Translations under genes and position numbers: made by a program
Notes under the pieces: generated by a model
Database searches by the model: none
The model's input: the letters and a program-made list of their open reading frames with translations, nothing else
What the model was told of the DNA's origin: nothing
Shown here: one piece after another, positions 13,622-47,424 of the stretch
Numbering within the stretch: position 1 is the first letter of the stretch
Layout: each line of letters opens with the position of its first letter
Assembly: GCA_903835255.1 (NCBI GenBank)
Contig: CAILMI010000046.1
Span: 1 to 64,000, forward strand
Direction: 5' to 3'
DNA: 64,000 bases
Source of the DNA: an uncultured Verrucomicrobia subdivision 3 bacterium
GTDB lineage: Bacteria; Verrucomicrobiota; Verrucomicrobiia; Limisphaerales; UBA11358

Positions 13622-13658
13622 AATTTTTTGGTGATGGTTGTGATTTCAGACTGCGCCG

Positions 13659-22800: not shown

Positions 22801-23541
22801 TTATTTTTCCTCGCTCTGCAACTCCATTGTCAGTGTAAAGCGCGAGCTGACATAAAGGATTTCTGTATATTCAAACGGGCGGCTGCCGGAGTCATAGACC
22901 GTGTGCCGGCGGAGTTGGAGGGGCGTTCCGGGGGTGACATGAAGTCGCTGTGCGTTGTGGGCTTCGGCGGTAGTGGCTAGAAACTCCTCCCTCGCTCGGA
23001 ACGGCTGGACACCGGTTTCCGCATTGAGGGTCTCATAGAGAGGCTTTGTGAAATCCTCGTTGCCTTTCAAGTTTAACCGGGGGTGGAACCAAGAGGTAGA
23101 CATTAGAATAGGTTTGCCTTCCCAGCCGCGGACCCGGTCCAGCCTCCAAATCGGATCTTTTGAATTGAGCTGAAGAGTTCGAAGGGTCTCAATGCAGGGA
23201 GCGGCCTGGATGTATTCCATTTGGAAGTTTTGAACGGTAATTCCTTTAGCTGCCATTTCGCTGGTAAAACTATGCCAAGCACTGATGCCCGAATCGAGAT
23301 GCTTGTCGGAGGCGCGGGTCCCCACCCCGGCCTTGCGTTCCAGTACCCCTTCATAAACTAATCGGCTGATGCCGGCACGCACCGTGCCCCGGCTGACGCC
23401 CAGTTTCGCGGCCAGCAATTCCTCATTGGGCAAAAGTTTTCCCGCCTGATATTCAGGGAGATTCACCATCTTGCGCAACAGCTGCTCCACTTGGGCGCGA
23501 AGCGGAATCGAATTCCGACGGTTCAACTTTAACATGGTCAC
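22801..23541 (-). CDS. GntR-family transcriptional regulator with UTRA-like effector domain
   Basis: LLRKMVNLPEYQAGKLLPNEELLAAKLGVSRGTVRAGISRLVYEGVLERKAGVGTRAS wHTH; C-terminal UTRA-like domain ...FEYTEILYVSSRFTLTMEL. Confidence 0.92.
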   Translation of the reverse strand: MTMLKLNRRNSIPLRAQVEQLLRKMVNLPEYQAGKLLPNEELLAAKLGVSRGTVRAGISRLVYEGVLERKAGVGTRASDKHLDSGISAWHSFTSEMAAKGITVQNFQMEYIQAAPCIETLRTLQLNSKDPIWRLDRVRGWEGKPILMSTSWFHPRLNLKGNEDFTKPLYETLNAETGVQPFRAREEFLATTAEAHNAQRLHVTPGTPLQLRRHTVYDSGSRPFEYTEILYVSSRFTLTMELQSEEK

Positions 23542-23913
23542 ATGCTAAATATATCCCGATGATTGTCAATAATTCTCGGCATGAGAGAAACGGGTCTAAC
23601 TAGCTTAATATGAGCGTGATAAGAACCTGTTAAACATGGAATTATTGGGAAATCTGCCTTAAAAAGGAGCGGTGAGTGAGCGTCCGTCCCCCCCAAGTCG
23701 GATTCACTAACCATTTAAGAGTATATGTATGTACATAATGCTTGACCGAAAGGGTCGCTGCCGTTCCAATGATGGCAAATGGCATGAGTTCAAGTCACCA
23801 ATTCTATCCTCTCGCAATGCCCCCGCTCAGCGGACACGGCGGTGAGTTGCCCATCCTGCTAGTGCGCTAAAATTTTTTAGGTTGAAATCCAGAGAGATCT
23901 TTTGAAATCGGGT

Positions 23914-24849
23914 ATGAAGACAATTGCGATTGGAACGGATATAGGGGGCAGCCATATCAGCTGTGCCGCCGTGGATTTTCAAAAGCAATGCATCCTGCCA
24001 AAAAGTTTTGTCGCATATCGGGTAAACCCCCAGGCGCCGGCTGACGAAATACTCACAATCTGGAGCAGGGCGTTGGGCCAATCCATGGCAGCGGTGGATG
24101 GAGCAAAATTAGCGGGAATCGGCTTTGCAATGCCGGGGCCATTTGACTACGTCCATGGCATTGCCCAATTTACAGCGGCGGTGCAAAAATACCAAAATTT
24201 GCGGGGCATCCCTGTTTCTCAGCGCCTCAAAGAGATGATGGCGTTGCCAGCCGAATTCGAATTGCGGTATATCAACGATGCCACTGCATTCGGAGTCGGT
24301 GAAGCGTGGATGGGCAAGGCGTCTGCGGCGAATCGGTCGATTGCAATCACACTGGGCACCGGTTTGGGGGCGGCCTTTATGGACCGGGGAATTCCGGTCG
24401 TCTCGGGCCAGGAGGTTCCTCCAATGGGGTCCATGTGGCATTTACCGTTTCATGACGACACCGCTGAGGATTCCTTCTCGACGCGTTGGTTTATCAAACG
24501 ATATGCCCAAAAAACCGGCAATTCACTGGAGGGGGTAAAGCAATTAGTCGACCGGGCAGCAACAGAGTCTTCCGCAAAAGAAGTTTTTTCCGAGTTCGGC
24601 TGTAATTTAGGTGAATTTTTGAGTCCGTGGGTCAAAAAATTCACGGCCGACATAGTTGTTATAGGAGGCAATATCTCCGCCGCCTACCCTCTATTCGGTC
24701 CTGATTTGGAGAAAACTATGAGCCAGCACTCGGCATCTGCGGCAATCGTGGTTTCCGAACTCAAGGAGGATGCTGCCGCGATTGGAAGCGCGCGATTATT
24801 CGAGGCGAACTTTTGGAGCCAAATCCAAGAATTACTCAAGAAAATGTGA
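23914..24849 (+). CDS. ROK-family protein (putative sugar kinase)
   Basis: MKTIAIGTDIGGSHISCAAVDF; GIGFAMPGPFDY; INDATAFGVGEAW; ITLGTGLGAAF; lacks an obvious CxCGxxGC motif. Confidence 0.85.
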   Translation: MKTIAIGTDIGGSHISCAAVDFQKQCILPKSFVAYRVNPQAPADEILTIWSRALGQSMAAVDGAKLAGIGFAMPGPFDYVHGIAQFTAAVQKYQNLRGIPVSQRLKEMMALPAEFELRYINDATAFGVGEAWMGKASAANRSIAITLGTGLGAAFMDRGIPVVSGQEVPPMGSMWHLPFHDDTAEDSFSTRWFIKRYAQKTGNSLEGVKQLVDRAATESSAKEVFSEFGCNLGEFLSPWVKKFTADIVVIGGNISAAYPLFGPDLEKTMSQHSASAAIVVSELKEDAAAIGSARLFEANFWSQIQELLKKM

Positions 24850-24873: not shown

Positions 24874-26166
24874 ATGAAATTCCTTTGTGAGATTGCTGTC
24901 CGCTGTTTTTGGGCTGGCCCTAGTGGGTGGCGCCCCGCATTGCTTGGGTTACTAGTGGTCGCATTGTCTGGGTGTGTGCACCCGATGCGGGAGGGGAAAA
25001 CAATTCCGCCGGCGCAGCGGGAGAGTGGTGGGGCAGGGGAGCGCCAGGCTGGAAATCAAACTCCGCAGGGAAAAGTTTTTGAACTGCCAGACAAGCGGAT
25101 GCTCCGGCTGACATCGGTCACGGCGGATCCAGTTTATGCGCATCTGTTGGACATGAGCACCAACGGATGGCTTGGGTCTGACGTGGGAGACTCCATCGTT
25201 TTATCCGACACGAAAACGCTCTGGCTGTTCGGCGACACATTCATCGGCGCTCTCTCCAACGGAGCGCGAGTTGGAGGCGCTCCCATGATCAACAGCACCA
25301 TCGGGATCCAAAACCGGCACAGTGCTCCGACATCGAGTATGGAATTTTTTTGGAAAGAGAAGGAGGGCAAGCCTGTAAGTTTTTTCCAGCACCAGACCAA
25401 TACGGCGGGTTCCTATTATTGGGTGACCAAAGGGGTGATGCTGCGGGGGGAGCTTTTTCTTTTCGCCTATTGCATTGAAGGCAACGATCAGGATGCCTCG
25501 GATTGGAAAATAGCGGGCAGCGCTCTCATCCGTGTGCCCAATCCACTTGACCCGCCCCATCAGTGGGTGCAGAAAGCCTATCCACTCAGTCTGGAAATCG
25601 GGGATACATTTCACGCCGGACTCTTTGTGTCCGAGCCGTATCTCTACCTTTATGGGATCGTTAAACCCAGGAAAATGGCATTGGCCCGGGTGAAGATTGA
25701 TGACTTATGCAGCGGAAAACTTGTGGAAGCCTATGAGTTTTGGGTTAAAGGGCCAGGAGGTGAGCATTGGGGGGCGGCTCCGGTCAATTGTGTGTCACAG
25801 TTTCAGCCAGTCACCAGCGAGTGCGCCATTCACTATGAAGCCGCATGGGGTGTTTTCACCTGTTTTACGTATTCCCCCTCCGAGCCGGAAATCTATCTGA
25901 CAACCGCCAAGCAGCTCACAGGTCCGTGGACCCGGCCGGAGGTGATTTATCGGGTGCCGGAGCATGCCGCTTATTCTTTTCCGATCATTTCCTATGCGGT
26001 GCGCCAGCATCCGGAACTGGCAGTCAAACCGGGCGAAGTCATTCTTAGCTATGTCACCAATGTGCCCGGGTCCATCAAGGAGCTTTTTTCTGAAGAGGGA
26101 AAAATGATTTATGTTCCGCAGTTTTTGCGTCTGGAACTGGAGATAGATGAAAATTCTGGAAATTGA
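24874..26166 (+). CDS. DUF4185-like lipoprotein, putative beta-propeller glycosidase-like
   Basis: Lipobox LSGC; 'TKTLWLFGDTFIGAL...PMINSTIGIQ'; 'GPWTRPEVIYRVPEH' blade-like motifs. Confidence 0.65.
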   Translation: MKFLCEIAVRCFWAGPSGWRPALLGLLVVALSGCVHPMREGKTIPPAQRESGGAGERQAGNQTPQGKVFELPDKRMLRLTSVTADPVYAHLLDMSTNGWLGSDVGDSIVLSDTKTLWLFGDTFIGALSNGARVGGAPMINSTIGIQNRHSAPTSSMEFFWKEKEGKPVSFFQHQTNTAGSYYWVTKGVMLRGELFLFAYCIEGNDQDASDWKIAGSALIRVPNPLDPPHQWVQKAYPLSLEIGDTFHAGLFVSEPYLYLYGIVKPRKMALARVKIDDLCSGKLVEAYEFWVKGPGGEHWGAAPVNCVSQFQPVTSECAIHYEAAWGVFTCFTYSPSEPEIYLTTAKQLTGPWTRPEVIYRVPEHAAYSFPIISYAVRQHPELAVKPGEVILSYVTNVPGSIKELFSEEGKMIYVPQFLRLELEIDENSGN

Positions 26167-26215
26167 AATCCCAAATCTTTATTGCAACCATCATTCGATT
26201 CAAGGAGAGCACCCT

Positions 26216-28567
26216 ATGAGAAAAAACGCGTTGGATAAAATATTGAGCGCTGTCCTGGTTTTTGGCGCCGCACTGGCGGCCCCCTGCCGTGAACCCGTGG
26301 ATATGATTAATCCTTTCATTGGGGCGGGCAGCTTGGAGGGCAGCCTCAGTGGATTTCATGGTAAAAATTTTCCGGGGGCGGCTACGCCTTCGGGAATGGT
26401 TCAGCTGAGTCCCGATACCATCACTGGGGGAGACAATGGCGGGGGTTATTCTTATGTTCACACGACCCTAGAAGGGTTCAGTATCAACCACCTGAGCGGC
26501 GTGGGCTGGTACGGTGATTTGGGCAACTTTCTGGTCATGCCTACGACTGGCCCCCTCAAGACTTATTGGGGTGAAACCGACAAGCCTGGTACCGGCTATT
26601 TATCCACTTATACTAAAGAAAGTGAAATCGCCCGGGCGGGCTATTATGCGGTGACCCTCAGCGATTATCAGATTCGGGCAGAAATGACGGCGGCTCCACA
26701 CAGCGGGATGCTCCGTTTCACTTTCCCGGAAAGCCCGCAATCCCGAATCCAGATTGATCTGGCCCGCCGCATCGGAGGCACCTCCCTCCATCAGACAGTA
26801 AAAGTCGTGGGCACTAATACGATTGAGGGACAGATTGATTGTACTCCCGCCGGCGGTGGCTGGGGGCATGGAGAAGGGAAAGCCGAATTTACGGTTTATT
26901 ATCACGCGGAGTTTGATCAGGAATTAAAAAATTTCGGCGTCTGGAGCGCCACCCTGCCGAGCGGGCCTTACAATGACATCCTGGGTCAAACTAATTTCAT
27001 CCAGGCGTGTGAATCGGCGTCGGTTCTTCCGGGGTGTCGGGACAAGGAGGGAATGCATCTTGGTTTTTTCACCGAATTTCCCACCCCGAAAGGCAAGGTG
27101 GTGATTTTAAAAATCGGCATTTCCTATGTGAGTCTTGAAGGTGCGCGCGCGAATATTAATTCAGAAATTCCGGATTGGGATTTTGACGCGGTCCAGAAAA
27201 AAGCCCGATTGGCTTGGGCAAAAGAATTAAATCGAATCACTGTCAAAGGGGGAACGGAGGCGCAGCAGACCATTTTTTACACGGCAATGTATCATGCCAT
27301 GATAGATCCCCGGATTTTTGCCGATGTGAACGGCGATTATCCGGGCGGCGACCATCAAGTGCATCACAGCCAGAATTTTACGAAACGCACCATCTTCAGC
27401 GGCTGGGATGTGTACCGCAGCGAGTTTCCTCTGCTCACCCTGATTGCCCCTGATATCATCAATGATGAGATTAATAGCTGGATTGAGTTAGCCGCTCAAA
27501 ACGGAACTCATTATTTTGATCGCTGGGAAATTTTGAATGCTTACTCGGGTTGTATGAACGGAAATCCCGCCCTAACCGTTATCAATGACGCCTATCAAAA
27601 GGGTATACGCGGCTACGATGTGGCTCGGGCCTATGAGTATGGCGTGAACACGGCGCTCAGATACGATAATGGGCCTTTGGGATATCAACCCGGTGATCTT
27701 TCCGCGACGTTTGAAAATGGATTTCATGCCTGGAACTTATCCCAATTGGCCAACAGCCTGGGTAAGTCAGCGGATGCCGCCCACTTTCAGAAGAGTTCAG
27801 AGGCATACAAGCTGCTGTTCGATCCTGAAGCTCCATGGACTTACGATTTAGAGGGGAAAGATTCGCATCCCGAGTGGAAAGGGTGGTTCCGGCCCCGCGA
27901 TAAAAATAGTCAATGGTTGCCATGGCTTGGGCTGCGCTCCCCGCAGGGCGTGGTGGAGGGTTCGGTTTATCAGCAAGGTTGGAACGTGCCTCACGACATT
28001 CCAGGATTGATCAGGCTCTTGGGTGGCAACGCTGCATTTATAAAAAAACTGAGTGATTTTTTTGACCGGGTTCCGCATTTTGCCCGCTGGAACGACTACG
28101 ATAACCCGTCCAACGAGCCCAGCCATTTGATACCTTTTATGTTCAACCGCGCTGGCGCGCCATGGTTGACGCAGAAATGGGTCCGGCGTATCTGCGCTGA
28201 GGCCTACGGCGCTGATTACAAGGGGTTGTGTGGCGATGAAGATGAAGGACAGATGTCAGCTTGGTTTGTTTTAGCGGCCAGCGGACTCCATCAATCCTGC
28301 CCTGGAGACACCCGCTTTGAAATTTTCACCCCGCTTTTCGACCAAGTGACCTTGAAACTCGATCCAAAATATACTGGGGGCGGAACTTTCACTGTGAACG
28401 CTATAAACAATTCCCCCGATAATGTTTATATCCAGTCAGCCACTTTGAATGGTCATCCGATTAATCGCTGCTGGCTCGATTACAAGGAGATTGTAGCGGG
28501 GGTAACGCTCCAGCTGATTCTGGGTCCTAAGCCCAATATAAAGTGGGGCGCTTCTCTTGAGCGTTAA
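26216..28567 (+). CDS. GH92-family alpha-mannosidase-like glycoside hydrolase
   Basis: ATG with AAGGAG RBS; VDMINPFIGAG...HGKNFPGAATPSGMVQLSPDT, GFSINHLSGVGW, FSGWDVYRSEFPLLTL, GDEDEGQMSAWFVLAASGLHQSCPGD. Confidence 0.93.
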   Translation: MRKNALDKILSAVLVFGAALAAPCREPVDMINPFIGAGSLEGSLSGFHGKNFPGAATPSGMVQLSPDTITGGDNGGGYSYVHTTLEGFSINHLSGVGWYGDLGNFLVMPTTGPLKTYWGETDKPGTGYLSTYTKESEIARAGYYAVTLSDYQIRAEMTAAPHSGMLRFTFPESPQSRIQIDLARRIGGTSLHQTVKVVGTNTIEGQIDCTPAGGGWGHGEGKAEFTVYYHAEFDQELKNFGVWSATLPSGPYNDILGQTNFIQACESASVLPGCRDKEGMHLGFFTEFPTPKGKVVILKIGISYVSLEGARANINSEIPDWDFDAVQKKARLAWAKELNRITVKGGTEAQQTIFYTAMYHAMIDPRIFADVNGDYPGGDHQVHHSQNFTKRTIFSGWDVYRSEFPLLTLIAPDIINDEINSWIELAAQNGTHYFDRWEILNAYSGCMNGNPALTVINDAYQKGIRGYDVARAYEYGVNTALRYDNGPLGYQPGDLSATFENGFHAWNLSQLANSLGKSADAAHFQKSSEAYKLLFDPEAPWTYDLEGKDSHPEWKGWFRPRDKNSQWLPWLGLRSPQGVVEGSVYQQGWNVPHDIPGLIRLLGGNAAFIKKLSDFFDRVPHFARWNDYDNPSNEPSHLIPFMFNRAGAPWLTQKWVRRICAEAYGADYKGLCGDEDEGQMSAWFVLAASGLHQSCPGDTRFEIFTPLFDQVTLKLDPKYTGGGTFTVNAINNSPDNVYIQSATLNGHPINRCWLDYKEIVAGVTLQLILGPKPNIKWGASLER

Positions 28568-32044: not shown

Positions 32045-32167
32045 GCCCAGCCGCCCCCAATCCAAATCCCCGGCTGATTGTGTGGGATTGATTGTACTTG
32101 CTCAATGAGAGATTGGGGGATAGCCTCCAAAAAACAGATTGTACATATATTAAAACAAATTAATACA

Positions 32168-33595
32168 ATGCGCACTACAGAGGGTTTAAAGCCGCTTCCA
32201 CCCAGCACCAATGGAGTTCCTGCTGCCCCGACCGCCGTCCACGATCACGGATCTATTTTATTTGTTCTGTTTGCTTCAGCGGTCACGGCGATAGGGGGGT
32301 TCCTTTTCGGATACGACACCGCCGTCATCAACGGTGCCAACACCTATTTGCAAAGTCATTTTGCTCTGGATCCTGAAAAAGACTCCCTGTGGATTGGGAT
32401 GGCCACGGCTTCTGCCATCTATGGTTGTGTGCCGGGGGCCATGTTCGCCGGTTTTTTTAGCGATAAATTCGGACGCCGCCGGGTGCTGTTTTTTTGTGCA
32501 ATCCTTTTCACCCTCTCGGCCATTCTCTCCGCCATTCCTCAAAATTTCAGCCAATTTATAATCGCCCGCGTGTTAAGCGGCATCGCCATCGGCATTTCAT
32601 CCATGATTTGCCCGGTGTACATCGCAGAGATTGCGCCGGCAAAATGGCGGGGGCGTTTAGGCGCGCTATTCCAACTGGGTATAGTGACCGGTATTTTCTT
32701 CACCTTGTTTATCAACCAATGGATTCAAAAAACCGGCGATACCAATTGGAACACCGTTTATGGGTGGCGCTGGATGCTGGCTGGGGAAGCCGTGCCGGCC
32801 GTCGTTTTTCTAGCCCTGCTGTTCACCATTCCCGAAAGCCCCCGATGGCTCATCCAGGTCGGCCGGGAAGCAAAAGCCCGGCAGATCCTCAACCGGATCG
32901 GTGGTGCGAATCATGCGGAGGTGGAAATTGCCGCGGTGAAAAATGTTCTCCTGCAGGAAAAGGGGACACTGTCAGAACTATTTTCCCGGCATTACCGCCT
33001 GCCATTGTTGATTGGTCTCGTGTTGACGATGGGGGCGCAGTTTAGCGGGATTAACTCCATCATGTATTATTCCACAGAAATTTTCAAGAATGCAACCGGC
33101 AACGCCAATGCTGCTTTCACGTCTTCGGTCTGGATTGGTCTGATTAATTTTCTAGCCACGTTTGGGGCGATCCTCTTAGTGGACAAAGCCGGTCGCAAGC
33201 CTTTGTTGCTCATTGGCAATGCGGTGCAAGTGGTCGCTCTGGTGATTGTGGGATGGATTTTTGCCTACAATCCGCATTCTCCGGCGCTGCTCGGGTTTGT
33301 GTTGCTTTATATCGTAGCGTTTGCATTAGCGATGGGCCCATTGCCCTGGATTATTTGCTCGGAAATTTTTCCCGCTAAGCTGCGCGGGCGCGCCATGTCC
33401 CTTTCTGCCGGGTCAGTCTGGATCGCCTGCTTGGTTGTGGCCCAGACCTTCCCCGTTCTGTTAAAAGAGATTGGCTCCGCGAAAACTTTTTGGATTTTTG
33501 CCATATTTTCAGGCCTCACATTCTTTTTTGTCCTGTTTCGTTTTCCCGAAACAAAGGGCCGGACTTTGGAGGAAATTGAGCTTTCTTGGAAGTAA
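32168..33595 (+). CDS. Sugar porter (MFS) family transporter
   Basis: FLFGYDTAVINGA, DKFGRRRVLF, PVYIAEIAPAKWRGRLGALFQLGIVTGI, PESPRWL, GINSIMYYSTEIF, VDKAGRKPLL, PWIICSEIFPAKLRGRAMS, FPETKGRTLEEIE. Confidence 0.96.
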   Translation: MRTTEGLKPLPPSTNGVPAAPTAVHDHGSILFVLFASAVTAIGGFLFGYDTAVINGANTYLQSHFALDPEKDSLWIGMATASAIYGCVPGAMFAGFFSDKFGRRRVLFFCAILFTLSAILSAIPQNFSQFIIARVLSGIAIGISSMICPVYIAEIAPAKWRGRLGALFQLGIVTGIFFTLFINQWIQKTGDTNWNTVYGWRWMLAGEAVPAVVFLALLFTIPESPRWLIQVGREAKARQILNRIGGANHAEVEIAAVKNVLLQEKGTLSELFSRHYRLPLLIGLVLTMGAQFSGINSIMYYSTEIFKNATGNANAAFTSSVWIGLINFLATFGAILLVDKAGRKPLLLIGNAVQVVALVIVGWIFAYNPHSPALLGFVLLYIVAFALAMGPLPWIICSEIFPAKLRGRAMSLSAGSVWIACLVVAQTFPVLLKEIGSAKTFWIFAIFSGLTFFFVLFRFPETKGRTLEEIELSWK

Positions 33596-33629: not shown

Positions 33630-35903
33630 ATGAAATTGAACCTCTGTCTTTGGCTGTCTTTAACTTTACTTGCGCCTTTCGCCCACGCGGGTGCCTCGGT
33701 CCCGACGCCAGCGACTCAATCCAAGCAACAGAAATATCCTTTGCCTGCCGGAGTGCCCACGCTGGATGAAATGGCCGGCGATTGGAAAAACCGGACGGAT
33801 CTTGAACAATTCCCCTCGATTCATAATTTCAATGCAGAATTACTGGTGAATAAGGATTTTTCCAGCGTGAGCTGGCTGGCTTCTCCGCCCTTTTCCCAGG
33901 CATTTCACAGCGGTGTTCTAAAACTCAACGGCAAAATTCCAGTCGCTGATAAATTCCGGTGGTATCCGTATCAGTCGGTCCGTTTTGGAGTAGCAGAGGG
34001 GCTGGCTATTGAAACTGTCAATCGCATGGTTTTTGATGACCGCGGCGTGCTCTGGCATATCACTTTGTCCAATACGCTACCGAATAGCGTGAGGGGAACA
34101 GTTTCCATAGATCTCATAGGCGCTATCAGCAAACTCACCGCAACCAATGCGTGGGATTGGGCCTTTGCCCAGCCCGGCGCCGGCGGGCCGAAGAGGCGTT
34201 ACGAGGAAACAGAGGCTATTCGCGCTCTGGTGGACCGGATCCCATCGCAACGACCGGATAACGCCAGCGAATATTCAGCCAGCATAGAATCCCCCAAAAT
34301 TCTGTTGATCAAAGACACCACCACGCCGGCCAAAACCGTTTTTAGTTTTTCAAAAAAACCGGACGATCTGGTTTCCGACGGGAACCAAGGTGTGGCTACG
34401 TGGAAGTATCAGCTGGCCCCCGGCCAAACTAAGACCATTGATTTTGTGATGGCTTATGGCGAGGGTGATCAGGTGCAGTCCAAGGCCAGCCAGTGGGGGG
34501 GTGGTTTTGATGTTGTTTTTGCGTCTGCCCGGAGTCTTTGGGAGCAACGGTATGCAGAGGTTTTTACCCCCCATAACAAATTTTTCGAAGGAAACCTGCC
34601 AGTGCTACAGACGGATGATCCAGCTCTGCGTCGGAATTATTACATGGGCGTGGTGACGATGTTGCTGATGTTGCGGGATCAGCTGCCATATAGTTCGCGC
34701 GTATTCCTGTCCGGCGGTCCACGCTATGGCGCCTCCGTTGAATTTATCTGGGATACCGGCATGATGGACACAATGTTTGCCCTGCTGGAACCGAAGGCCA
34801 TGCGCGCCTATGTAATCAAGACGTTGCAATGGGATTTGGAAAAATATCTAGCTTTTGATTACTTTGGTAACCGGGCCTTCGGTTATCGGTATGTGGCCAA
34901 TTACCCGATGCTTTTCCGGATTGCAGCCAACTATATCCGAATCACCGGAGACCGTGCCTTCCTTGAACAAAAACTCGGGAACGAAACCGTATTACAAAGA
35001 CTGGATGAGCTGGCGTTGCACTATGGTCAATACCTCATGACCGATGGCAGCGGGTTGGCTGATTTTGGAGATGATCCCTGGCATTTCTTGGAATGCGTCC
35101 CCACATATATCCATGCCACTGCCGGGTTTAATGCAGCTTATGTCTCGATGCTGAGGGAAATGGGAGAACTTTACGATTTCCTAGGCAAACCCGAAATGGC
35201 GGGGCAAAGACGCCTGGCTGCGAAAAAACTGGTCAGTGCCATCTACCCACAATTGTATGTTTCGGGCAAAGGTTTTTGGCAGAGTCGTTATCCGGACGGC
35301 CGCCAATTCGACATGAGGCATTGCTTGGATTTTCAATTCGTGGCGCAGGGGATTGGAGATGATCTGCCCCCAGCCGTGCGCGGGGAAATGCGAAAATTTG
35401 TCAACCAGGAGTTATTAATGAAAAACTGGATGCGGGCGCAGTCCCTGCAGGACCCGGCAGCAGATAAGTCCGACCGACCTGACCACGGTCCTATGGGCGC
35501 TTACTCTGGCTGGCCGCCGGAGACCGCTGACGGACTTTGTCACTTAGGCTATTGGCAAGACGCATTCGATTTTTATCGCCGATGCGAGGCGGCAACTCGT
35601 GAAGGAGCATTTTCTCAAGGCGCTGAGTTTTATGGCCCCAAAAAAAGGGATTATGACGCGCCGGTACGCATTGCTAATGAGGGAACGATTTGTCGGGAGG
35701 CAGTATGTGGCGCAGGTTTTACCGATGTTGTCATCAGGACTTTCTTTGGATTTCATCCCAGCTTGAATCTGGATGCTCCGAATCCTCTTTGGAGGGCAAA
35801 GGAACCTCGGGGTTTTAACGGAACACTGAACCATGTTCGATGGGCGGGTGGCAGTTATACAATTGTTTCCGGCCCCGATGGCCTGACTCTTATAAAAGAG
35901 TAA
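33630..35903 (+). CDS. Secreted six-hairpin (alpha/alpha)6-type glycosidase-like protein
   Basis: Signal peptide MKLNLCLWLSLTLLAPFAHAGA; 'SGGPRYGASVEFIWDTGMMDTMFALLEPKAM', 'YPQLYVSGKGFWQSRYPDGRQFDMRHCLDF', 'PMGAYSGWPPETADGLCHLGYW'. Confidence 0.7.
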   Translation: MKLNLCLWLSLTLLAPFAHAGASVPTPATQSKQQKYPLPAGVPTLDEMAGDWKNRTDLEQFPSIHNFNAELLVNKDFSSVSWLASPPFSQAFHSGVLKLNGKIPVADKFRWYPYQSVRFGVAEGLAIETVNRMVFDDRGVLWHITLSNTLPNSVRGTVSIDLIGAISKLTATNAWDWAFAQPGAGGPKRRYEETEAIRALVDRIPSQRPDNASEYSASIESPKILLIKDTTTPAKTVFSFSKKPDDLVSDGNQGVATWKYQLAPGQTKTIDFVMAYGEGDQVQSKASQWGGGFDVVFASARSLWEQRYAEVFTPHNKFFEGNLPVLQTDDPALRRNYYMGVVTMLLMLRDQLPYSSRVFLSGGPRYGASVEFIWDTGMMDTMFALLEPKAMRAYVIKTLQWDLEKYLAFDYFGNRAFGYRYVANYPMLFRIAANYIRITGDRAFLEQKLGNETVLQRLDELALHYGQYLMTDGSGLADFGDDPWHFLECVPTYIHATAGFNAAYVSMLREMGELYDFLGKPEMAGQRRLAAKKLVSAIYPQLYVSGKGFWQSRYPDGRQFDMRHCLDFQFVAQGIGDDLPPAVRGEMRKFVNQELLMKNWMRAQSLQDPAADKSDRPDHGPMGAYSGWPPETADGLCHLGYWQDAFDFYRRCEAATREGAFSQGAEFYGPKKRDYDAPVRIANEGTICREAVCGAGFTDVVIRTFFGFHPSLNLDAPNPLWRAKEPRGFNGTLNHVRWAGGSYTIVSGPDGLTLIKE

Positions 35904-36049: not shown

Positions 36050-37843
36050 ATGTCTCCTGTAAAAAAAAATGACGGGCAAAAAATCCTGCTCGGAGCAGGC
36101 AATTATGACAGGTATCCAGTGGTGGAAGTCCCTGACAGTGGTGGTCGCTGCAGCATTGGGTGGAAAGCAATTGCAGAAAATTTAAATTTTTTTGTTCGTC
36201 AAAAAGTTTTAAAAAAAACTGTATTGGTGGTGGAGTGTTATCCTGGGGTGAATGAACACGAGATTATCAATCAACTCCAATTACATTTTTCGGCGGATTT
36301 GATATTGAAGTCGTCGGAAGCCTTGCTGCCTCCTGATGCTATTCGCGTCCTCACGGAGCCTTTTTCTGGGGGGGACGACCCCATTTTTGGATTCCTCTCC
36401 GGCCTGACACTTCCTCAGTTCTTTGATGAAGATGCAGTGCGGCGGTTTCAAGACAATGTTGCGAATCTAAAACAGGGGCTGGTGATCATAGTCGGGGTCG
36501 GGGCACGGATCATTGCCGATGGAGATGTTTTCGTCTATGCCAACCTGACACGGTGGGAGGCGCAAAATCGGTTTCGGCGGCATGAGGTCGGTAATCTCGG
36601 TGCCGATAATCGGCAAATGCCAGCCAGCATCCTTTATAAGAACGCTTATTTCATTGATTGGCGTGCGGCGGACCGTTGGAAAAAACCGCTGATTGCCCAA
36701 TGGGATTTTGTTTTGGATACCAACAATCCTGCCGAACCCAAGATGGCAGAGGGTGAAGCCGTGCGCCAGGGACTGAGGCATGCCGTAAATCGTCCTTTCC
36801 GGGTAGTCCCATTTTTTGACCCGGCTCCATGGGGTGGACAATGGATGAAGGAGGTTTGTGATCTTGACCGGAAAACCAAAAATTTTGGATGGTGCTTTGA
36901 TTGTGTGCCAGAGGAAAATAGCCTAATGCTTGGCTTAGGGGGAGTTTCTTTTGAAATACCGGCCTCCGACCTTGTTTTTTACCAGCCGCGAGCATTGCTG
37001 GGTGAACAAGTTCATGCCCGTTTCGGCGACGAATTTCCAATCCGTTTTGATCTGCTGGATACCATGGGCGGGGGTAATCTTTCCTTTCAGGTTCATCCGC
37101 TCACCGAGTACATTCAGCAGGCATTTGGAATGCACTACACACAGGATGAAAGTTATTATCTGCTGGATGCAGCTCCCGGTGCGGGTGTTTACCTAGGTTT
37201 CCGCGATGGAGTGGATGCTGCGGCAATGGCAGGCAATCTCAAAGAAGCCCATGAAAAATCTTTGCCATTTGAGGTGGATCAGTACGTCAATAAGTGGCCA
37301 GCAAAAAAGCACGATCATTTTCTAATTCCAGCTGGAACCGTTCATTGTTCCGGAGACAATTCAGTTGTCCTTGAGATTAGTGCCACTCCTTATATATTCA
37401 CATTCAAGCTGTGGGATTGGGGTCGTCTGGGTCTGGATGGGAAGCCGCGGCCGATTAACTTAAAACATGGTCTTGCCAATATCCAATGGGACCAAACAAC
37501 TTCGTGGGTTGAAAAAAACCTAATAAATCGCATTTGTCCTTTGGGTGAGGGGGATGGTTGGCGCGAGGAGCAGACCGGATTGCATCAGCGCGAGTACATT
37601 GATACCCGCCGCCATTGGTTCACAAAAGCGGTTCTTCATAACACCCAAGGGGGCGTCAATGTTCTGAACTTGGTGGAAGGCGAAGAGGTCGTTGTCTCAA
37701 GCCCGCACGGATCCTTCGCCCCATTCGTCGTCCATTATGCCGAGACTTTTATTGTCCCCGCCGCCGTTGGAGAGTATGTGATCGAGCCCACTGGAAAGTC
37801 GGCAGGTCAGAAGTGCGCTACGATGAAAGCGTTTGTCCGTTAG
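36050..37843 (+). CDS. Class I mannose-6-phosphate isomerase-like protein with additional N-terminal domain
   Basis: C-terminal PMI core: DTMGGGNLSFQVHPLTEYIQQ, DESYYLLDAAPGAGVYLGF, HDHFLIPAGTVHCSGDNSVVLEIS, TFKLWDWGRLG; about 250 aa extra N-terminus. Confidence 0.8.
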   Translation: MSPVKKNDGQKILLGAGNYDRYPVVEVPDSGGRCSIGWKAIAENLNFFVRQKVLKKTVLVVECYPGVNEHEIINQLQLHFSADLILKSSEALLPPDAIRVLTEPFSGGDDPIFGFLSGLTLPQFFDEDAVRRFQDNVANLKQGLVIIVGVGARIIADGDVFVYANLTRWEAQNRFRRHEVGNLGADNRQMPASILYKNAYFIDWRAADRWKKPLIAQWDFVLDTNNPAEPKMAEGEAVRQGLRHAVNRPFRVVPFFDPAPWGGQWMKEVCDLDRKTKNFGWCFDCVPEENSLMLGLGGVSFEIPASDLVFYQPRALLGEQVHARFGDEFPIRFDLLDTMGGGNLSFQVHPLTEYIQQAFGMHYTQDESYYLLDAAPGAGVYLGFRDGVDAAAMAGNLKEAHEKSLPFEVDQYVNKWPAKKHDHFLIPAGTVHCSGDNSVVLEISATPYIFTFKLWDWGRLGLDGKPRPINLKHGLANIQWDQTTSWVEKNLINRICPLGEGDGWREEQTGLHQREYIDTRRHWFTKAVLHNTQGGVNVLNLVEGEEVVVSSPHGSFAPFVVHYAETFIVPAAVGEYVIEPTGKSAGQKCATMKAFVR

Positions 37844-37978
37844 CATCCATGATTCCTATTTGGCTTAGAAAACATGTCAAATTTTACCTAGGATGAAGAG
37901 GGCGATTTTTTTTAGTACATTAGGAAGTGTAGCGTCGTTACGGAGAAGTTTAATTTGAATTAATAGACTCATTTTACC

Positions 37979-39814
37979 ATGCCACTGTACGAATATAGGA
38001 AAAACGCAAATAACTCTGTGCCTCTCCCTCCCGAGGCGCAGAAATCAATTCTGGTTGGAACAGCGGCCGTTCTTGCTGAAATCGCAACTCTGCTAAAGAA
38101 ATTAAGCCAAAAAAAAGGGTGCGTTACGGCTGCTTTGGACGGTTGGTACGGTGTTAATTGGGCCTTATTAAAGGAGGAATTGACCTTAGCTGCCAAGGCG
38201 CAAGGGCTGTCACTTCATCTTGTATTTACTGGGGAGCTATTCAAAACAGAAGCCGAAATAGAAATATATAGAAAGCCCTATGTCACGGATGACCCTTCCT
38301 TTGGACGTGTCAATAATAATGGCATTTTAGAAGATATTTTTGATGTGCAGAAAATTGCCGATTTGAAAAATCGGCTTCAAAATCGAGCGGAGACAGATCT
38401 GAATGTAATTCTGGTGATAGGTCCCGGTGCAGACATGGAAGAATTGATAAGTTTTTTTGATGTCAGGTTCTACGCAGACTTTACAATGCAGCCGCTGCTA
38501 TGGCAGATGTGGGATAGCAAGCTGGTGCCATTTGGCTGTGAGGAACCTGACCGTGATTATCACTGGAAAAAATACTACTATTGCGATTTCTATTTACTGC
38601 TGAAGCAAAAGAAAAAAGCTTTTTCCAGAATGGACTATTATTTAGACGCGGTAGATCCGACTGCTCTTAAAATGATGTCCGCGTCAGTTTATAATTTGAT
38701 AATTGACGAACTGGTTCAGCGGCCAATTAAACAAGTCAAGATAACGCAGCCGGGTCCCTGGGGGTCTTACCGCTTCAAGGAGATCTATGAAGAGATTCCC
38801 GGTTTGGAAAATATGGCATGGAATGAACTGGCTGGAATTGAATTGAGTATTCTGGTTGATGTTGGATGCGCAATTTTGACCATGCCTTGCCAAAACATAA
38901 TGCAGCGTCCTGTGCAAATGGTCGGAGAATATGTGCATCAGAAATTCCCAGATCTTCTGCCGCTTCAAGTCTGGCTGGACGACGGTTACTTCAAAGATCC
39001 GGTGCCTTACGAACGGGGCAGCATGCCCATTCACAACCACCCTGACACGGACTATGTGAAGCGCAATTTTAATGAACCCCTAGGACGCTACGAAACATAT
39101 TATATCGTTGAGGCTTATAAAGATGCGGGAACAATGATGGGCTTCAAGGAGAGTGCAGACCTGGAAGAGTATGAGCGCCTCTGTCGCGATTCTAAAAATC
39201 TCAAAACTTTTGATTGGCAGAAATTCGTTTGCCGGTGGCCCACGAACGTAGGCGACCTTTTTCTGATTCCCCCGGGAACGGAACATGGACACGGCGGAAA
39301 TCAAATGATTTTGGAAATGGATACCGGTCCGAGTGTGGCGGGCACGGAATATTCTTTTTTCACTTATGATTTTGCGAGGAACACGTGGGACGACAAGGCG
39401 AAAAGCATGACAGCGCCGCCAATGAAAATGCATATTGAGCATTCCTTTCGAAACAACAAGTGGCGGAGAGAAAAATATGTGCAGGAGCATCTCCGCGCGC
39501 GCCCCGTAGTTGTCAGGGGGGATGGGGATACTCGCATGGACCGATTTACTTCGGTCGATGAAATGCCTTTTGAAATTGAGCGTTTTGTCTTCTCAAAGCC
39601 AATGTCCCATAGCACCGAGGGTCGTTTTCTCCAAATACCCACTTTGACGGTGGGCAAAACGGCAATCATACGTTCCAAGAAGAATCCCCATATACAGACA
39701 ACTATCGAGTTTCTACAGGCCTGCCTCATCCCAGCTGGCTTTGGTGATTATGAATTCATCAGTCCTGATGGATCCCAGTGTACAATTGTCATGATTCGGT
39801 TAAAACAGTCATAA
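37979..39814 (+). CDS. Class I mannose-6-phosphate isomerase-like protein (divergent paralog) with N-terminal kinase-like domain
   Basis: YERGSMPIHNHPDTDYVKRNFNEP, RYETYYIVEAYKDAGTMMGF, GDLFLIPPGTEHGHGGNQMILEMD; N-terminus 'GCVTAALDGWYGVNWALLKEELTLAAKAQG'. Confidence 0.75.
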   Translation: MPLYEYRKNANNSVPLPPEAQKSILVGTAAVLAEIATLLKKLSQKKGCVTAALDGWYGVNWALLKEELTLAAKAQGLSLHLVFTGELFKTEAEIEIYRKPYVTDDPSFGRVNNNGILEDIFDVQKIADLKNRLQNRAETDLNVILVIGPGADMEELISFFDVRFYADFTMQPLLWQMWDSKLVPFGCEEPDRDYHWKKYYYCDFYLLLKQKKKAFSRMDYYLDAVDPTALKMMSASVYNLIIDELVQRPIKQVKITQPGPWGSYRFKEIYEEIPGLENMAWNELAGIELSILVDVGCAILTMPCQNIMQRPVQMVGEYVHQKFPDLLPLQVWLDDGYFKDPVPYERGSMPIHNHPDTDYVKRNFNEPLGRYETYYIVEAYKDAGTMMGFKESADLEEYERLCRDSKNLKTFDWQKFVCRWPTNVGDLFLIPPGTEHGHGGNQMILEMDTGPSVAGTEYSFFTYDFARNTWDDKAKSMTAPPMKMHIEHSFRNNKWRREKYVQEHLRARPVVVRGDGDTRMDRFTSVDEMPFEIERFVFSKPMSHSTEGRFLQIPTLTVGKTAIIRSKKNPHIQTTIEFLQACLIPAGFGDYEFISPDGSQCTIVMIRLKQS

Positions 39815-39831
39815 AAACTACTTTTTAAAAC

Positions 39832-40674
39832 ATGAAATCCGCACGTTTGAACCGCCTTTTTAATTCCAAGTCAAAACGATGTTTTGACGTCGCTGTAGAT
39901 CATGGTTTTTTTAATGAACATGATTTTTTGGCCGGCATTGAAAATATGCGCAAGGCTATAGATGTGCTCATCGCTGCGGCACCGGATGCCATACAATTGA
40001 CCGTCGGCTTGGCTCCTCTCCTTCAGGAGATTCCGGGACGTAATAAGCCGTCGTTGGTATTACGGACGGATGTGGCCAATGTTTACGGTAAAGATTTGCC
40101 CCGAACTTTATTCAGCCGGATGATTCAGAGTCCTGTGGAGCAGGCGTTGCGCCTGGACGCCACGTGTGTGGTGGTAAACCTATTTCAAATTCCTAACCAG
40201 CCCGAAGTTGCCGATCAGTGCGTGCAAAATATTCTCGCGATCAAGCCCGAGTGCGACCGCTATGGCATGCCTCTGATGATTGAACCCCTTGTTTTTCAGC
40301 CAAATACAATTGCAGGTGGTTACATGGTTGACGGGGATTTAAAAAAAATACTACCGCTGGTCCGCCAGGCTGTTGAAATGGGGGCGGACATTATTAAAGC
40401 CGATCCTACCGATGACGTGAGCACCTTCCATCGAGTTGTTGAAATTTCAGGTCGCATTCCTGTGTTGGTTCGGGGCGGCGGTCGGGCTCCGGATAATATT
40501 ATCCTCCAGCGCACGGAGGCGCTCATAAAGCAGGGTGTGTCCGGCATTGTCTATGGGCGCAATGTCATACAGCACGCCAATCCTGCGGGGATGACAAAAG
40601 CGCTCATGGCTATTGTTCATGATGGGGCGGACGCTGTTTCGGCTTCACATTTTATTAACTCTTTGAATGCATGA
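39832..40674 (+). CDS. DhnA/LsrF-type class I aldolase family protein
   Basis: CFDVAVDHGFFNE, MPLMIEPLVFQ, AVEMGADIIKADPTDD, GRIPVLVRGGGRAPD, GVSGIVYGRNVIQHANP. Confidence 0.85.
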   Translation: MKSARLNRLFNSKSKRCFDVAVDHGFFNEHDFLAGIENMRKAIDVLIAAAPDAIQLTVGLAPLLQEIPGRNKPSLVLRTDVANVYGKDLPRTLFSRMIQSPVEQALRLDATCVVVNLFQIPNQPEVADQCVQNILAIKPECDRYGMPLMIEPLVFQPNTIAGGYMVDGDLKKILPLVRQAVEMGADIIKADPTDDVSTFHRVVEISGRIPVLVRGGGRAPDNIILQRTEALIKQGVSGIVYGRNVIQHANPAGMTKALMAIVHDGADAVSASHFINSLNA

Positions 40675-41804
40675 GCATGAAGGTAAAGATAGGCATCATT
40701 GGGTGCGGACTGATGGGGCGCGAAGTGGCGAGCGCATTAAGCCGTTGGTTTGTCCTGGAAGATCACCCTTGCCACCCAGAATTGGTTGCTGTTTGCGATC
40801 CGGTAGCCAGCCGGCGAGATTGGTTCCGTCGAGTGCCAACGGTGAGATTATTCGCCGCCGACCATCATGAACTGCTGAATTCATCCGAAATTGATGTCGT
40901 TTACGTCGCTGTCCCGCATAACCTCCACGAAAAAATCTACCTTGATGTTTTAAATTCGGGGAAAGATTTATTTGCAGAAAAACCTTTCGGTGTTGATCTT
41001 AGAGCGGCAAAAAATATTTCCTCTGATGCAACAAGATTAAAGCGGTTTGTTCGTTGCAGTTCTGAATTTCCATTCTTACCGGGCGGGCAGCGCGCTTTCG
41101 AAATTGCCAGAGGTGGCGGCTTGGGCCGCTTATTGGAGGTGCGCGCTGGCTTTCTTCATAGCAGTGATCTAGATCCTAACAAGCCCGCGAACTGGAAGCG
41201 GCGGAATGAAACCTGTGGCGAAATCGGAGTCATGGGCGATTTAGGTATGCACGTGGTTCATATCCCCTTCCGCCTTGGTTGGAAGCCTAAAACTGTTTAT
41301 GCCCAGTTGCAAAAATTTTATCCCCAGCGTCCCGGTGGAGCGGGTGGAAACGTGATCTGTGATACCTGGGATAATGCCACCCTCCATACCGGGGTAGATG
41401 TTGATGGTCATGAGATCCCAATGAGGCTCGAGATGAAACGGCTTGCCCCGGGAGAAACAAATACTTGGTTCGTTGAGATTCTTGGAACTGAGGGCGGGGT
41501 AAAATACAGCACCAAAGAGCCCAAGACACTCTGGACGTTTAAACGCGACAGGGAACAATGCTGGTTGCGCACCGACCTCGGTTTCAATGGACCCTTCACC
41601 ACAATTACAGGTGGTATTTTCGAACCCGGTTTCCCCGATTGCTTCCTCCAGATGTGGGCGTCATTTTTAGCTGAGCGCTGCGGCAAGCTAGGAGGGCGAT
41701 TCGGATGCGTGACTCCAGATGAAGCCACGATGAGTCATCAGCTTTTCGAATCGGCGCTAAAATCTCAAATTGAGAAAAATGCCATCCAAATCAACTGGGC
41801 TTAG
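40671..41804 (+). CDS. Gfo/Idh/MocA family oxidoreductase-like protein
   Basis: KIGIIGCGLMGREVASAL, DVVYVAVPHNLHEKIYLDVLNSGKDLFAEKPFGVDL, GVMGDLGMHVVHIPFRLG. Confidence 0.92.
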   Translation: MSMKVKIGIIGCGLMGREVASALSRWFVLEDHPCHPELVAVCDPVASRRDWFRRVPTVRLFAADHHELLNSSEIDVVYVAVPHNLHEKIYLDVLNSGKDLFAEKPFGVDLRAAKNISSDATRLKRFVRCSSEFPFLPGGQRAFEIARGGGLGRLLEVRAGFLHSSDLDPNKPANWKRRNETCGEIGVMGDLGMHVVHIPFRLGWKPKTVYAQLQKFYPQRPGGAGGNVICDTWDNATLHTGVDVDGHEIPMRLEMKRLAPGETNTWFVEILGTEGGVKYSTKEPKTLWTFKRDREQCWLRTDLGFNGPFTTITGGIFEPGFPDCFLQMWASFLAERCGKLGGRFGCVTPDEATMSHQLFESALKSQIEKNAIQINWA

Positions 41805-41822
41805 TAGGGCAAAATAATTTCT

Positions 41823-42398
41823 ATGAAACGGAGTGTTATAAACGGTCTGGTCCGATCCGCGGAAAAATGCTTTCGAGCCCACAGTTGGAGTCTTCCCCCT
41901 AAACCGCGATGGGACGTTACAGATTTTGGGCTCGGGGACTGGCAGCATTTTGGATTAGTTTTGGTCAACTTGGCAGAAGAGCAGGAATATTGTGAAAAAA
42001 TAATGTATGCCAAGGAAAAGATGCAGACTCCGGCTCATTGTCATTGGAAAAAAAAAGAAGATATAATCTGTCGTTGGGGAAAGCTGGCGGTGCAAGTTTG
42101 GGCTGGAATTCCTCATGAAAACCCTGTCAGCAATTTTATAATTTCTATTAATCACTCCCCGATGCCAATCATGTCCGGAAGAGTCGTCGAGTTGACCGCT
42201 GGTTCCCGAATCACCCTCCTGCCTGGAACGTTTCACGCGTTCTACCCCCTTTCTAAGGAATGTATTATTGGGGAGGTTTCCACAGCAAACGATGACCGAA
42301 ATGATAATTTCTTTTTTAACCCGGAAGTGGGTCGGTATCCCGGCATTGAGGAGGACGAAGCTGCCTATGTTCCTCTTATAAGCGACAAAAGCTTTTAA
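41823..42398 (+). CDS. D-lyxose/D-mannose ketol-isomerase-like cupin protein
   Basis: MKRSVINGLVRSAEKCFRAHSWSLPP, YCEKIMYAKEKMQTPAHCHWKKKEDIICRWGKLAVQVW, LTAGSRITLLPGTFHAFYPL, GEVSTANDDRNDNFF. Confidence 0.85.
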   Translation: MKRSVINGLVRSAEKCFRAHSWSLPPKPRWDVTDFGLGDWQHFGLVLVNLAEEQEYCEKIMYAKEKMQTPAHCHWKKKEDIICRWGKLAVQVWAGIPHENPVSNFIISINHSPMPIMSGRVVELTAGSRITLLPGTFHAFYPLSKECIIGEVSTANDDRNDNFFFNPEVGRYPGIEEDEAAYVPLISDKSF

Positions 42399-42399
42399 G

Positions 42400-43419
42400 A
42401 TGACACACCGTTCCGGCATTCTTGCGGGTGGAAATTGGATCGTGGATAAGCTGAAGCTGATTGACACCTATCCCCAACAAGATGCCCTGGCAAACATACT
42501 TGATGAAAAAGTTGGAAATGGCGGCAGCCCGTTCAACATACTACTGGATTTGGCAAATTTAGGCGCAAAATTTCCTTTAGCGGCAGTCGGATTAATTGGA
42601 AATGATGCGGATGGACAATGGGTTGTTAATCAATGTGTTCAAAAAAACGTTAATACCGATCAATTAACCAAATCCTCATTGTCCCATACATCTTACACCT
42701 ATGTGATGATGGCTCAAAAAACGGCGCGGCGAACTTTTTTTCATCAACGAGGTGTAAACGCCCTTCTGGACGACCCCCATTTTAACTTTGAGTCTAGTTC
42801 GGCTCGCATTTTTCATCTGGGATACTTGCTTTTGCTCGACCGATTAGATCAACCAGATGACGATTTTGGAACAGTAGCAGCCAGGGTGTTGCAGCGGGCA
42901 ACGCTTGCAGGTTTAAAGACGAGTATTGATTTGGTTAGCGAAGACAGTGACCGATTCAAAAAAATTGTACTGCCTGCACTGCCCCATGTTGATTATTGTT
43001 TTCTTAACGAATTCGAAATTGAACGCACGACTGGAATTCTCGTGCGGCAAAATGATAAAATAGATCATGTTGCCTTGAAAGCTGCTGCCGAAATCCTTAT
43101 TCAGGCAGGCGTCAGGGAATGGGTTGTAGTTCATTTTCCTGAAGGGGCTTGCGCGGTAGGCCGAAATGGACAGCTGCGAATGCAGGGCAGTCTTTGTGTG
43201 CCTCTGTCTAGAATTCGTGGAACGGTAGGTGCTGGCGATGCTTTTGCCGCCGGGGTGCTTTATGGTTTGCATGAAGGGTGCGATATGGAATCCGCCCTTA
43301 TTTACGGAGTTTGTGTGGCTGCTGCTTGTCTCTGTGAAGCCGGCTGTTCTGATGGCGTCCGCCCTCTCGAAGAATGCCTGATGCTAAAAAATGAGTTTGG
43401 CGTCCGTTCAGGTTTTTGA
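42400..43419 (+). CDS. PfkB-family carbohydrate kinase
   Basis: LAGGNWIVDKLK..., GGSPFNILLDLANLGAKFPLAAVGLIGNDADGQWV, RGTVGAGDAFAAGVLYGLHEG. Confidence 0.94.
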   Translation: MTHRSGILAGGNWIVDKLKLIDTYPQQDALANILDEKVGNGGSPFNILLDLANLGAKFPLAAVGLIGNDADGQWVVNQCVQKNVNTDQLTKSSLSHTSYTYVMMAQKTARRTFFHQRGVNALLDDPHFNFESSSARIFHLGYLLLLDRLDQPDDDFGTVAARVLQRATLAGLKTSIDLVSEDSDRFKKIVLPALPHVDYCFLNEFEIERTTGILVRQNDKIDHVALKAAAEILIQAGVREWVVVHFPEGACAVGRNGQLRMQGSLCVPLSRIRGTVGAGDAFAAGVLYGLHEGCDMESALIYGVCVAAACLCEAGCSDGVRPLEECLMLKNEFGVRSGF

Positions 43420-46187: not shown

Positions 46188-46736
46188 TCAGAACGACCAG
46201 TTGACGATGGGAAAACCGGTCGCGAGTTTGTCCGGGAATTCCTTGAACCAGGGATTGTTCCGAGCAATGTTCGCGAGGCCGATTTGCACGCCGTGTAGGT
46301 TTTCGGCGTAGTTCACCAGCCCCACTTGAAGGCCGTGAAATTCTTGGGCAGAGTTGAAAATCCAAGCAGATTGCAATCCCGTGAACGTGCCCTTGGACAG
46401 GTTGACCAGGGGAAGATAAAAGCCCCCCTGCCACCCCACAAAACTGACCCCGCTGTAGTTGACTAATCCCCACGAGACGCCGGTGTAGGAATCGGCATAG
46501 TTGAAAAGGCCCCAGCTGAAGCCGGCGCTGTCGCCGGTGCTGCCGTTGACGAGGCCCAGGGCGACGCCCTGTTGCGGGTTTTCACCCCAGAGACTCAAGG
46601 ACAAGCCGCGGATTTCAGCGGTCTTGGAATGAAGGGCGATTTCCGGGGTCAGCGAAGCCTGGAAGGGGTGCGACTCCTCGGCCGATGCCGCAGCAACGCA
46701 GAAGCAGAGGAAGGCGAAAGAGAGTGTTTTTTTCAT
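46188..46736 (-). CDS. Secreted repeat protein (LA_2272-type surface-repeat-like)
   Basis: Signal peptide; repeats GVSWGLVNYSG, GLQSAWIFNSAQ, GLQVGLVNYAENLHGVQIGLANIARNN. Confidence 0.7.
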   Translation of the reverse strand: MKKTLSFAFLCFCVAAASAEESHPFQASLTPEIALHSKTAEIRGLSLSLWGENPQQGVALGLVNGSTGDSAGFSWGLFNYADSYTGVSWGLVNYSGVSFVGWQGGFYLPLVNLSKGTFTGLQSAWIFNSAQEFHGLQVGLVNYAENLHGVQIGLANIARNNPWFKEFPDKLATGFPIVNWSF

Positions 46737-46806
46737 AGAAAAAGTGTTTAAAGAGCATGGCGTTTTCAGGGGCTAAAACGCAAGCGTTGTCGGCAAAAAT
46801 GTCGGC

Positions 46807-46838
46807 AAAAAAACCGGGAGCCGGCGAGCGGCTCCCGG
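46807..46838 (-). terminator. Intrinsic terminator downstream of 46857..47351
   Basis: On minus strand CCGGGAGCCGctcgCCGGCTCCCGG + TTTTTTT. Confidence 0.93.
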
Positions 46839-46856
46839 TGGGGAAGGCGGGCTGGA

Positions 46857-47351
46857 TTAGAACGACCAGTTGACGATAGGGAAACCGGTCGCGAGTTTGT
46901 CCGGGAATTCCTTGAACCAGGGATTGTTCCGAGCAATGTTGGCGAAGCCGATTTGCACGCCGTGCAGGTTTTCGGCGTAGTTCACGAAGCCCATTTGCAG
47001 GCCCGTGCATTTACCGGTCGAATAGTTCACCAGCCCCGCCTGCCAGCCCAGGAAGTCGGTCTTGCTCAGGTTCACCATGGACCATTGGACGCCCTTGTAC
47101 GAATCCGCGTAATTGACAAAGAACGCCCAGCTGAACCCGCTGCTCTCGCCGGTGCTGCCGTTGACAAAGCCGAAGTTAAAGCTGTGCTGCGGGTTTTCGC
47201 CCCAGACATCCAGCGCGATGCCGCGGATTTCAGTGGTCTTGGGTTGGACGGCGATGTCCGGGGTCAGCGAGGCCTGGAAGAACGGGGCGTCTTCCGCCTT
47301 TAAGCCGACGGTGCCAAGGACGAGAACTGCGAGGAGGAGTGTTTTTTTCAT
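46857..47351 (-). CDS. Secreted repeat protein, tandem paralog of 46188..46736
   Basis: Start MKKTLLLAVLVLGTVGLKAED; shares the C-terminus NYAENLHGVQIG(L/F)ANIARNNPWFKEFPDKLATGFPIVNWSF with its neighbour. Confidence 0.75.
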   Translation of the reverse strand: MKKTLLLAVLVLGTVGLKAEDAPFFQASLTPDIAVQPKTTEIRGIALDVWGENPQHSFNFGFVNGSTGESSGFSWAFFVNYADSYKGVQWSMVNLSKTDFLGWQAGLVNYSTGKCTGLQMGFVNYAENLHGVQIGFANIARNNPWFKEFPDKLATGFPIVNWSF

Positions 47352-47424
47352 GGTTGTATTGATGGTTAAGGTGGACCGACTCCGACACGCCCACCCTAAT
47401 CTTAAAAAATGCCGGTGCAACAAG

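Follow-up and report, generated by a model that had tools for sequence, protein, structure and literature searches.

The window, i.e. the whole stretch of 64,000 nucleotides that was analysed, belongs to a 97%-complete genome of 3.17 Mb in 70 contigs, which its relatives place in the Verrucomicrobiota. It contains six open reading frames on the + strand that were already proposed in the initial annotation and were all found there intact, each with an ATG start. The first, designated PMI1 (36050-37843), has the fold of type I phosphomannose isomerases, preceded by an additional N-terminal domain of ~240 aa, and it is followed by its distant paralogue PMI2 (37979-39814) which keeps the H/E/H pattern. 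Next come ALD (39832-40674), a class I aldolase of the DhnA/LsrF type (PF01791, 5e-36), GFO (40671-41804), a Gfo/Idh/MocA oxidoreductase (PF01408/PF22725), LYX (41823-42398), a short cupin of the D-lyxose/D-mannose isomerase family (PF07385, 1.3e-45), and PFKB (42400-43419), a ketose kinase of the PfkB family (PF00294, 4.7e-29). The earlier family readings were borne out by Pfam for the latter four and for the PMI-like pair by the match of both proteins to the solved mannose-6-phosphate isomerase of B. subtilis (1qwr).

From PMI2 via ALD, GFO and LYX to PFKB the intergenic distances are 17, -4, 18 and 1 bp. PMI1 is separated from PMI2 by 135 bp and from the preceding gene by 146 bp, so the tight packing first described for all six genes holds for the five from PMI2 to PFKB and not for PMI1. 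A scan for promoters and terminators gave nothing above chance; we therefore infer co-transcription from spacing and conservation.

The surrounding low-GC region

All six genes are located within a region of low GC content (20001-44000, edges approximate) with values of 0.47-0.52 vs 0.54-0.62 on the flanks. It also encodes a GntR-family regulator (22801-23541, - strand) with 43-65% identity to regulators adjoining PMI1 orthologues and, on the + strand, a sugar kinase of the ROK glucokinase family (23902-24849, below cut-offs), a GH92 alpha-mannosidase (26147-28567; PF07971 with 2e-136, TIGR01180 above cut-off) and an MFS sugar porter of the SP family (32078-33595, TIGR00879 above cut-off). A SASA esterase is encoded there as well. 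The porter is syntenic in the uncultured Verrucomicrobium L165 and adjoins many PMI1 orthologues. As a distant ROK protein also adjoins PMI1 orthologues, the ROK kinase is a candidate hexokinase of the PMI1 branch. Between porter and PMI1 lies the gene of a 757-aa protein (GHx, 33630-35903, + strand) that is probably secreted and has no match in Pfam or NCBIfam. It is syntenic with PMI1 and 72-79% conserved in G170 and L165; its AF2 model is unreliable (pLDDT 44.5). This protein is possibly a glycosidase and could represent a candidate new family. ALD, GFO, LYX and PFKB are absent from most other genomes of the genus, and this patchy distribution together with the low-GC composition suggests a horizontally acquired mannoside island.

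Two further features of the window were recorded outside this region. An L-rhamnose isomerase RhaA (13659-14927, above the NCBIfam cut-off) is found beside a predicted membrane transporter (together 12455-14927), and at 46188-47423 two small repeat-containing proteins with near-identical C-terminal parts are encoded in tandem, likely due to a local duplication.

The PMI-like proteins and the conserved four-gene unit

The PMI fold of PMI1 constitutes the C-terminal part of the protein, behind the extra domain. Its AF2 model (pLDDT 89.8) superimposes on 1qwr with a target-normalised TM of 0.85, and H349, E367 and H432 are invariant across 25 homologues. PMI1 thus resembles type I ManA in fold and in the H/E/H residues but differs by the additional N-terminal domain and an identity of about 16%. 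PMI2, with about 22-25% identity to PMI1, shares the ~240-aa domain ahead of the fold. Canonical ManA was rejected as an assignment for both since PMI1 remains under the cut-off of PF20511 (16.6 bits vs 22) and PMI2 matches no Pfam family. A second PMI-like protein of canonical size is encoded in the same genome (at C34).

It was proposed initially that the six genes constitute one pathway, and this does not agree with their distribution. Orthologues of PMI1 (60-72%) occur in about 20/196 genomes of the order, where they adjoin ROK, MFS and GntR genes and not ALD, GFO, LYX or PFKB; the few orthologues of PMI2 are likewise sited away from these four genes. The genome of L165 retains the entire order MFS-GHx-PMI1-PMI2-ALD-GFO-LYX-PFKB over eight genes, in line with a six-step route in which both PMI-like proteins are required, but as PMI1, PMI2 and the block ALD-GFO-LYX-PFKB are found independently of one another we regard such a route as improbable.

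The conserved unit is ALD-GFO-LYX-PFKB. This order is kept in the window, in other Verrucomicrobiota (L165, L162, L125, L166, L173 and L176) and, among Bacteroidota, in Pedobacter deserti (L236), with one extra gene before LYX in L162 and L176, and it is found on two Rhizobium plasmids and on a plasmid in Thioclava. The Thioclava record annotates an aldolase, a Gfo/Idh/MocA protein, a D-lyxose/D-mannose isomerase and a carbohydrate kinase; a sugar ABC transporter comes next. Conservation of the neighbourhood in relatives and other phyla is thus above chance for these four genes. A protein of about 380 aa that has no Pfam match and is a possible mutarotase recurs either in the interval from GFO to LYX or close to MtlD-like genes (L176:8284-9426, L162:8293-9435, L399, L403, L408, L409 and L059:12521-13660).

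With 155.8 bits LYX clearly exceeds the cut-off of PF07385 (20.8). Its metal ligands H72, H74, E79 and H138 (HxH-x4-E ... H) are invariant in 14 sequences and align with those of E. coli D-lyxose isomerase 3kmh. It stays under the cut-off of the NCBIfam equivalog NF051472 (106 vs 350 bits) and represents a short (190 aa), divergent subfamily. A search of the phylum with LYX only, combined with earlier matches at the level of the order, yielded 24 genomes with this short subfamily; next to LYX a PfkB-family kinase occurs in 13/24 of them, an aldolase candidate in 11/24 and at least one of the two in 17/24.

The kinase itself is less informative. PFKB is near-universal in the order (152/196 genomes), and at 61/80 of its loci all partner genes are missing; it was therefore abandoned as an operon marker, and only operon-linked copies, for the most part separated from the solitary copies in the tree, can be considered. 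Ribokinase, adenosine kinase, YdjH and ketohexokinase are its top PDB matches, and neither the sugar nor the phosphorylation site is settled by its sequence.

Three candidate solutions for the aldolase position

ALD scores 124.9 bits against PF01791 and is by sequence nearest to LsrF and MJ0400. With 110-115 bits it does not reach the NCBIfam equivalog cut-offs (297-430) for LsrF, ADH synthase and archaeal FBP aldolase. Its invariant K189 aligns with the Schiff-base lysine of MJ0400 and LsrF; in LsrF chain 4p2v, which we take to be an active-site mutant, the aligned residue is alanine. GFO has a Rossmann profile and conserves the EKP lysine, D190 and H194. It reaches no characterised Gfo/Idh/MocA equivalog among levoglucosan dehydrogenase, IolG and others (best 82.9 vs 650 bits).

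ALD is present in 48/196 and GFO in 41/196 genomes of the order, 38 of which have both (Fisher p = 1e-27, a value inflated by shared ancestry). Within one genome the two are often not neighbours, and the genes around solitary copies of GFO and ALD are mostly housekeeping with no pathway gene in common. This co-occurrence could point to a two-enzyme cleavage unit in which GFO would oxidise, or transiently oxidise, the ketose-1-phosphate or process the aldehyde and so enable a DhnA-type enzyme to achieve what takes a single aldolase in sister operons. Such a reading, which we consider doubtful, predicts that ALD and GFO are paired across genomes and that GFO is missing from the mapped loci which combine LYX with a second protein, ALD2; the latter would then be a further, undescribed aldolase family. 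GFO is indeed absent from those loci.

ALD2, a protein of 345 aa, represents a conserved family of 334-348 aa whose members take the place of the aldolase next to LYX, an LmuK-like kinase or both (L369:2176-3216, L365, L366, L372, L375, L419:3961-4989 and L422:3984-4988). In Shinella and Aureimonas, too, it adjoins a kinase of the PFKB type. Where scanned it has no match in Pfam or NCBIfam, and a PDB search gave nothing meaningful. Profile comparison with ALD produced a short C-terminal match only, at a probability of 8%, too little to relate the two. From its position and from motifs judged by eye only, ALD2 is a candidate new aldolase family.

Near LYX or PFKB there are thus class I ALD with GFO, ALD2, and a class II ketose-bisphosphate aldolase. 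The last is found in Persicobacter and Citrobacter, and the enzyme of the Citrobacter-type operon does not match ALD. That one and the same position is occupied by non-homologous aldolase candidates speaks for a route from isomerase via kinase to aldolase. The logic suggested at the outset (isomerase, PfkB kinase, class I aldolase) is upheld by these exchanges among relatives and by the frequencies of kinase and aldolase candidates beside LYX.

Known routes, the probable sugar and the proposed pathway

The initial annotation had found no matching pathway, but a homologous isomerase and kinase occur in the lmuKAIZYX route of E. coli O157 (PMC10128022). In O157:H7 this system supports growth of a manA mutant on mannose if its regulator is overexpressed; LmuI of EHEC turns mannose into fructose and LmuK has fructose-kinase activity (PMC10128022). 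In both systems a PF07385 cupin acting on a free aldose to give the ketose is combined with a PfkB-family kinase and then an aldolase, and the LmuI-family isomerase is located beside the LmuK-family kinase in the window too. With respect to a Citrobacter lmu-like operon, PFKB shares 42% identity with the kinase in the LmuK position and LYX 34% with the isomerase. The aldolase of lmu is a class II enzyme of the LmuA type whereas the window has the PF01791 class I ALD plus GFO. Moreover, lmu has the ABC transporter LmuXYZ and the regulators LmvKR; the mapped region of the window has an MFS porter and a GntR protein, no two-component system was seen in it, and the locus adds PMI-like genes and GH92.

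The sulfo-EMP pathway (YihS, YihV, YihT and YihU; PMC9594981) likewise joins an isomerase, a PfkB kinase, a PF01791 class I aldolase and an oxidoreductase for the aldehyde. Its isomerase YihS belongs to the unrelated family PF07221, in contrast to PF07385 in the window, and the mapped region showed no genes for sulfosugars. The window operon works like lmu and sulfo-EMP and belongs to neither. It is a known kind of route, in which the class I DhnA-type aldolase with its GFO partner is the new part. No paper linking D-lyxose isomerase to mannose and Verrucomicrobia came up in a literature search. In vertebrate fructolysis ketohexokinase and then aldolase B convert fructose via fructose-1-phosphate to DHAP and glyceraldehyde. 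This is the chemistry proposed here, and ketohexokinase is found among the structural matches of PFKB; the differences are another aldolase subfamily and a start from mannose in the window.

As to the sugar, mannosidases adjoin LYX operons in several relatives. L395 has the order DeoR-ALD2-LYX-PFKB-GH38, one genome (L411/L382) has GH38-LYX-PFKB, L389 has GH38-LYX, and in L149 GH38 is near a divergent LYX. L394 and L401 have GH2 next to PFKB, the one of L401 with an Ig_mannosidase domain, and an MtlD-like gene adjoins several of these loci. Gene order, protein families, catalytic residues, conservation and this linkage to mannosidases are supported directly. Judged from gene families and neighbours, a hexose ranks ahead of a pentose for the window locus and D-mannose is most likely the substrate of LYX.

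With a pentose, LYX would convert D-lyxose (or a XylA-like enzyme in relatives D-xylose) to D-xylulose, PFKB would form xylulose-1-phosphate and ALD would release DHAP and glycolaldehyde, the latter leading via glycolate to GlcDF. A XylA-like gene is indeed found directly upstream of ALD in L170, L158, G093 and G057, GlcD and GlcF lie beside the operon in L176 (GlcF also in L170), and lmu mutants of E. coli are impaired on lyxose (PMC10128022). The mannosidases beside LYX operons, GH92 in the window and the absence of the XylA-like gene from the window genome speak against a pentose, which we judge rather unlikely for this locus and possible in some relatives. Enzymes of both the LYX and the XylA family act on hexoses too, and the exchange of the isomerase therefore does not discriminate between pentose and hexose. 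If true, the pentose version would mean that the xylulose-1-phosphate route, which PMC5029101 and related papers present as synthetic, also exists in nature. Starting from xylose or glucose, the XylA-like isomerases (e.g., L170:6876-7922 and L158:9772-10836) may supply this same kinase-aldolase pair.

A 6-deoxyhexose route of the L-rhamnose or L-fucose type, yielding L-lactaldehyde, has some points in its favour: the mutarotase RhaM (PF05336) beside L230 and L147, LutAB-like lactate-oxidation genes in L227 and a rhamnosidase near L395. It is nevertheless hardly probable as the window encodes a true L-rhamnose isomerase elsewhere (13659-14927) and both metal site and homology of LYX are those of D-lyxose/D-mannose isomerases. 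Even further from the evidence is a scheme resembling myo-inositol catabolism, with GFO as IolG, PFKB as IolC, the cupin as IolB and ALD as IolJ. In NCBIfam PFKB scores best against the IolC model (70.8 bits vs a cut-off of 300), and IolG is among the matches of GFO, but all these matches are far under the cut-offs and LYX belongs to PF07385. No IolE above cut-off exists in the 97%-complete genome (best 38 bits vs 290); the scheme was rejected and we assign it a very low probability.

The reading we favour, with some reservation, is that the operon represents the intracellular part of an acquired mannoside island. GH92 and partner enzymes would release D-mannose, the MFS porter would import it and LYX would isomerise the free sugar to D-fructose. 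PFKB would then phosphorylate D-fructose at C1, and the resulting fructose-1-phosphate would be split by the lysine-dependent ALD to DHAP and D-glyceraldehyde. GFO would contribute an ALD-linked redox reaction, perhaps with the aldehyde as its substrate, and the ROK kinase together with PMI1 would provide a second entry from mannose via mannose-6-phosphate to fructose-6-phosphate. We infer all substrates, the phosphorylation at C1, the reaction of GFO and the role of PMI2. Several observations count against the mannose route. With a PMI route already in the island a second route for mannose looks redundant, and lmuK and lmuA of EHEC are dispensable for growth on lyxose (PMC10128022). In part of the ALD-GFO-PFKB clusters there is a XylA-like isomerase, GlcD/GlcF or LutAB-like genes, and such neighbours fit glycolaldehyde or lactaldehyde rather than glyceraldehyde.

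A route of this kind would provide a testable function for several unassigned families that recur in Verrucomicrobiota, Bacteroidota and plasmids of Alphaproteobacteria. It would be a free-sugar route for mannose (or a pentose) that bypasses the hexose-6-phosphates and has three interchangeable aldolase solutions, and it would account for the tight pairing of ALD and GFO and give ALD2 its first role. Finally, it would connect the breakdown of mannan and N-glycans by Verrucomicrobiota to a ketose-1-phosphate route.
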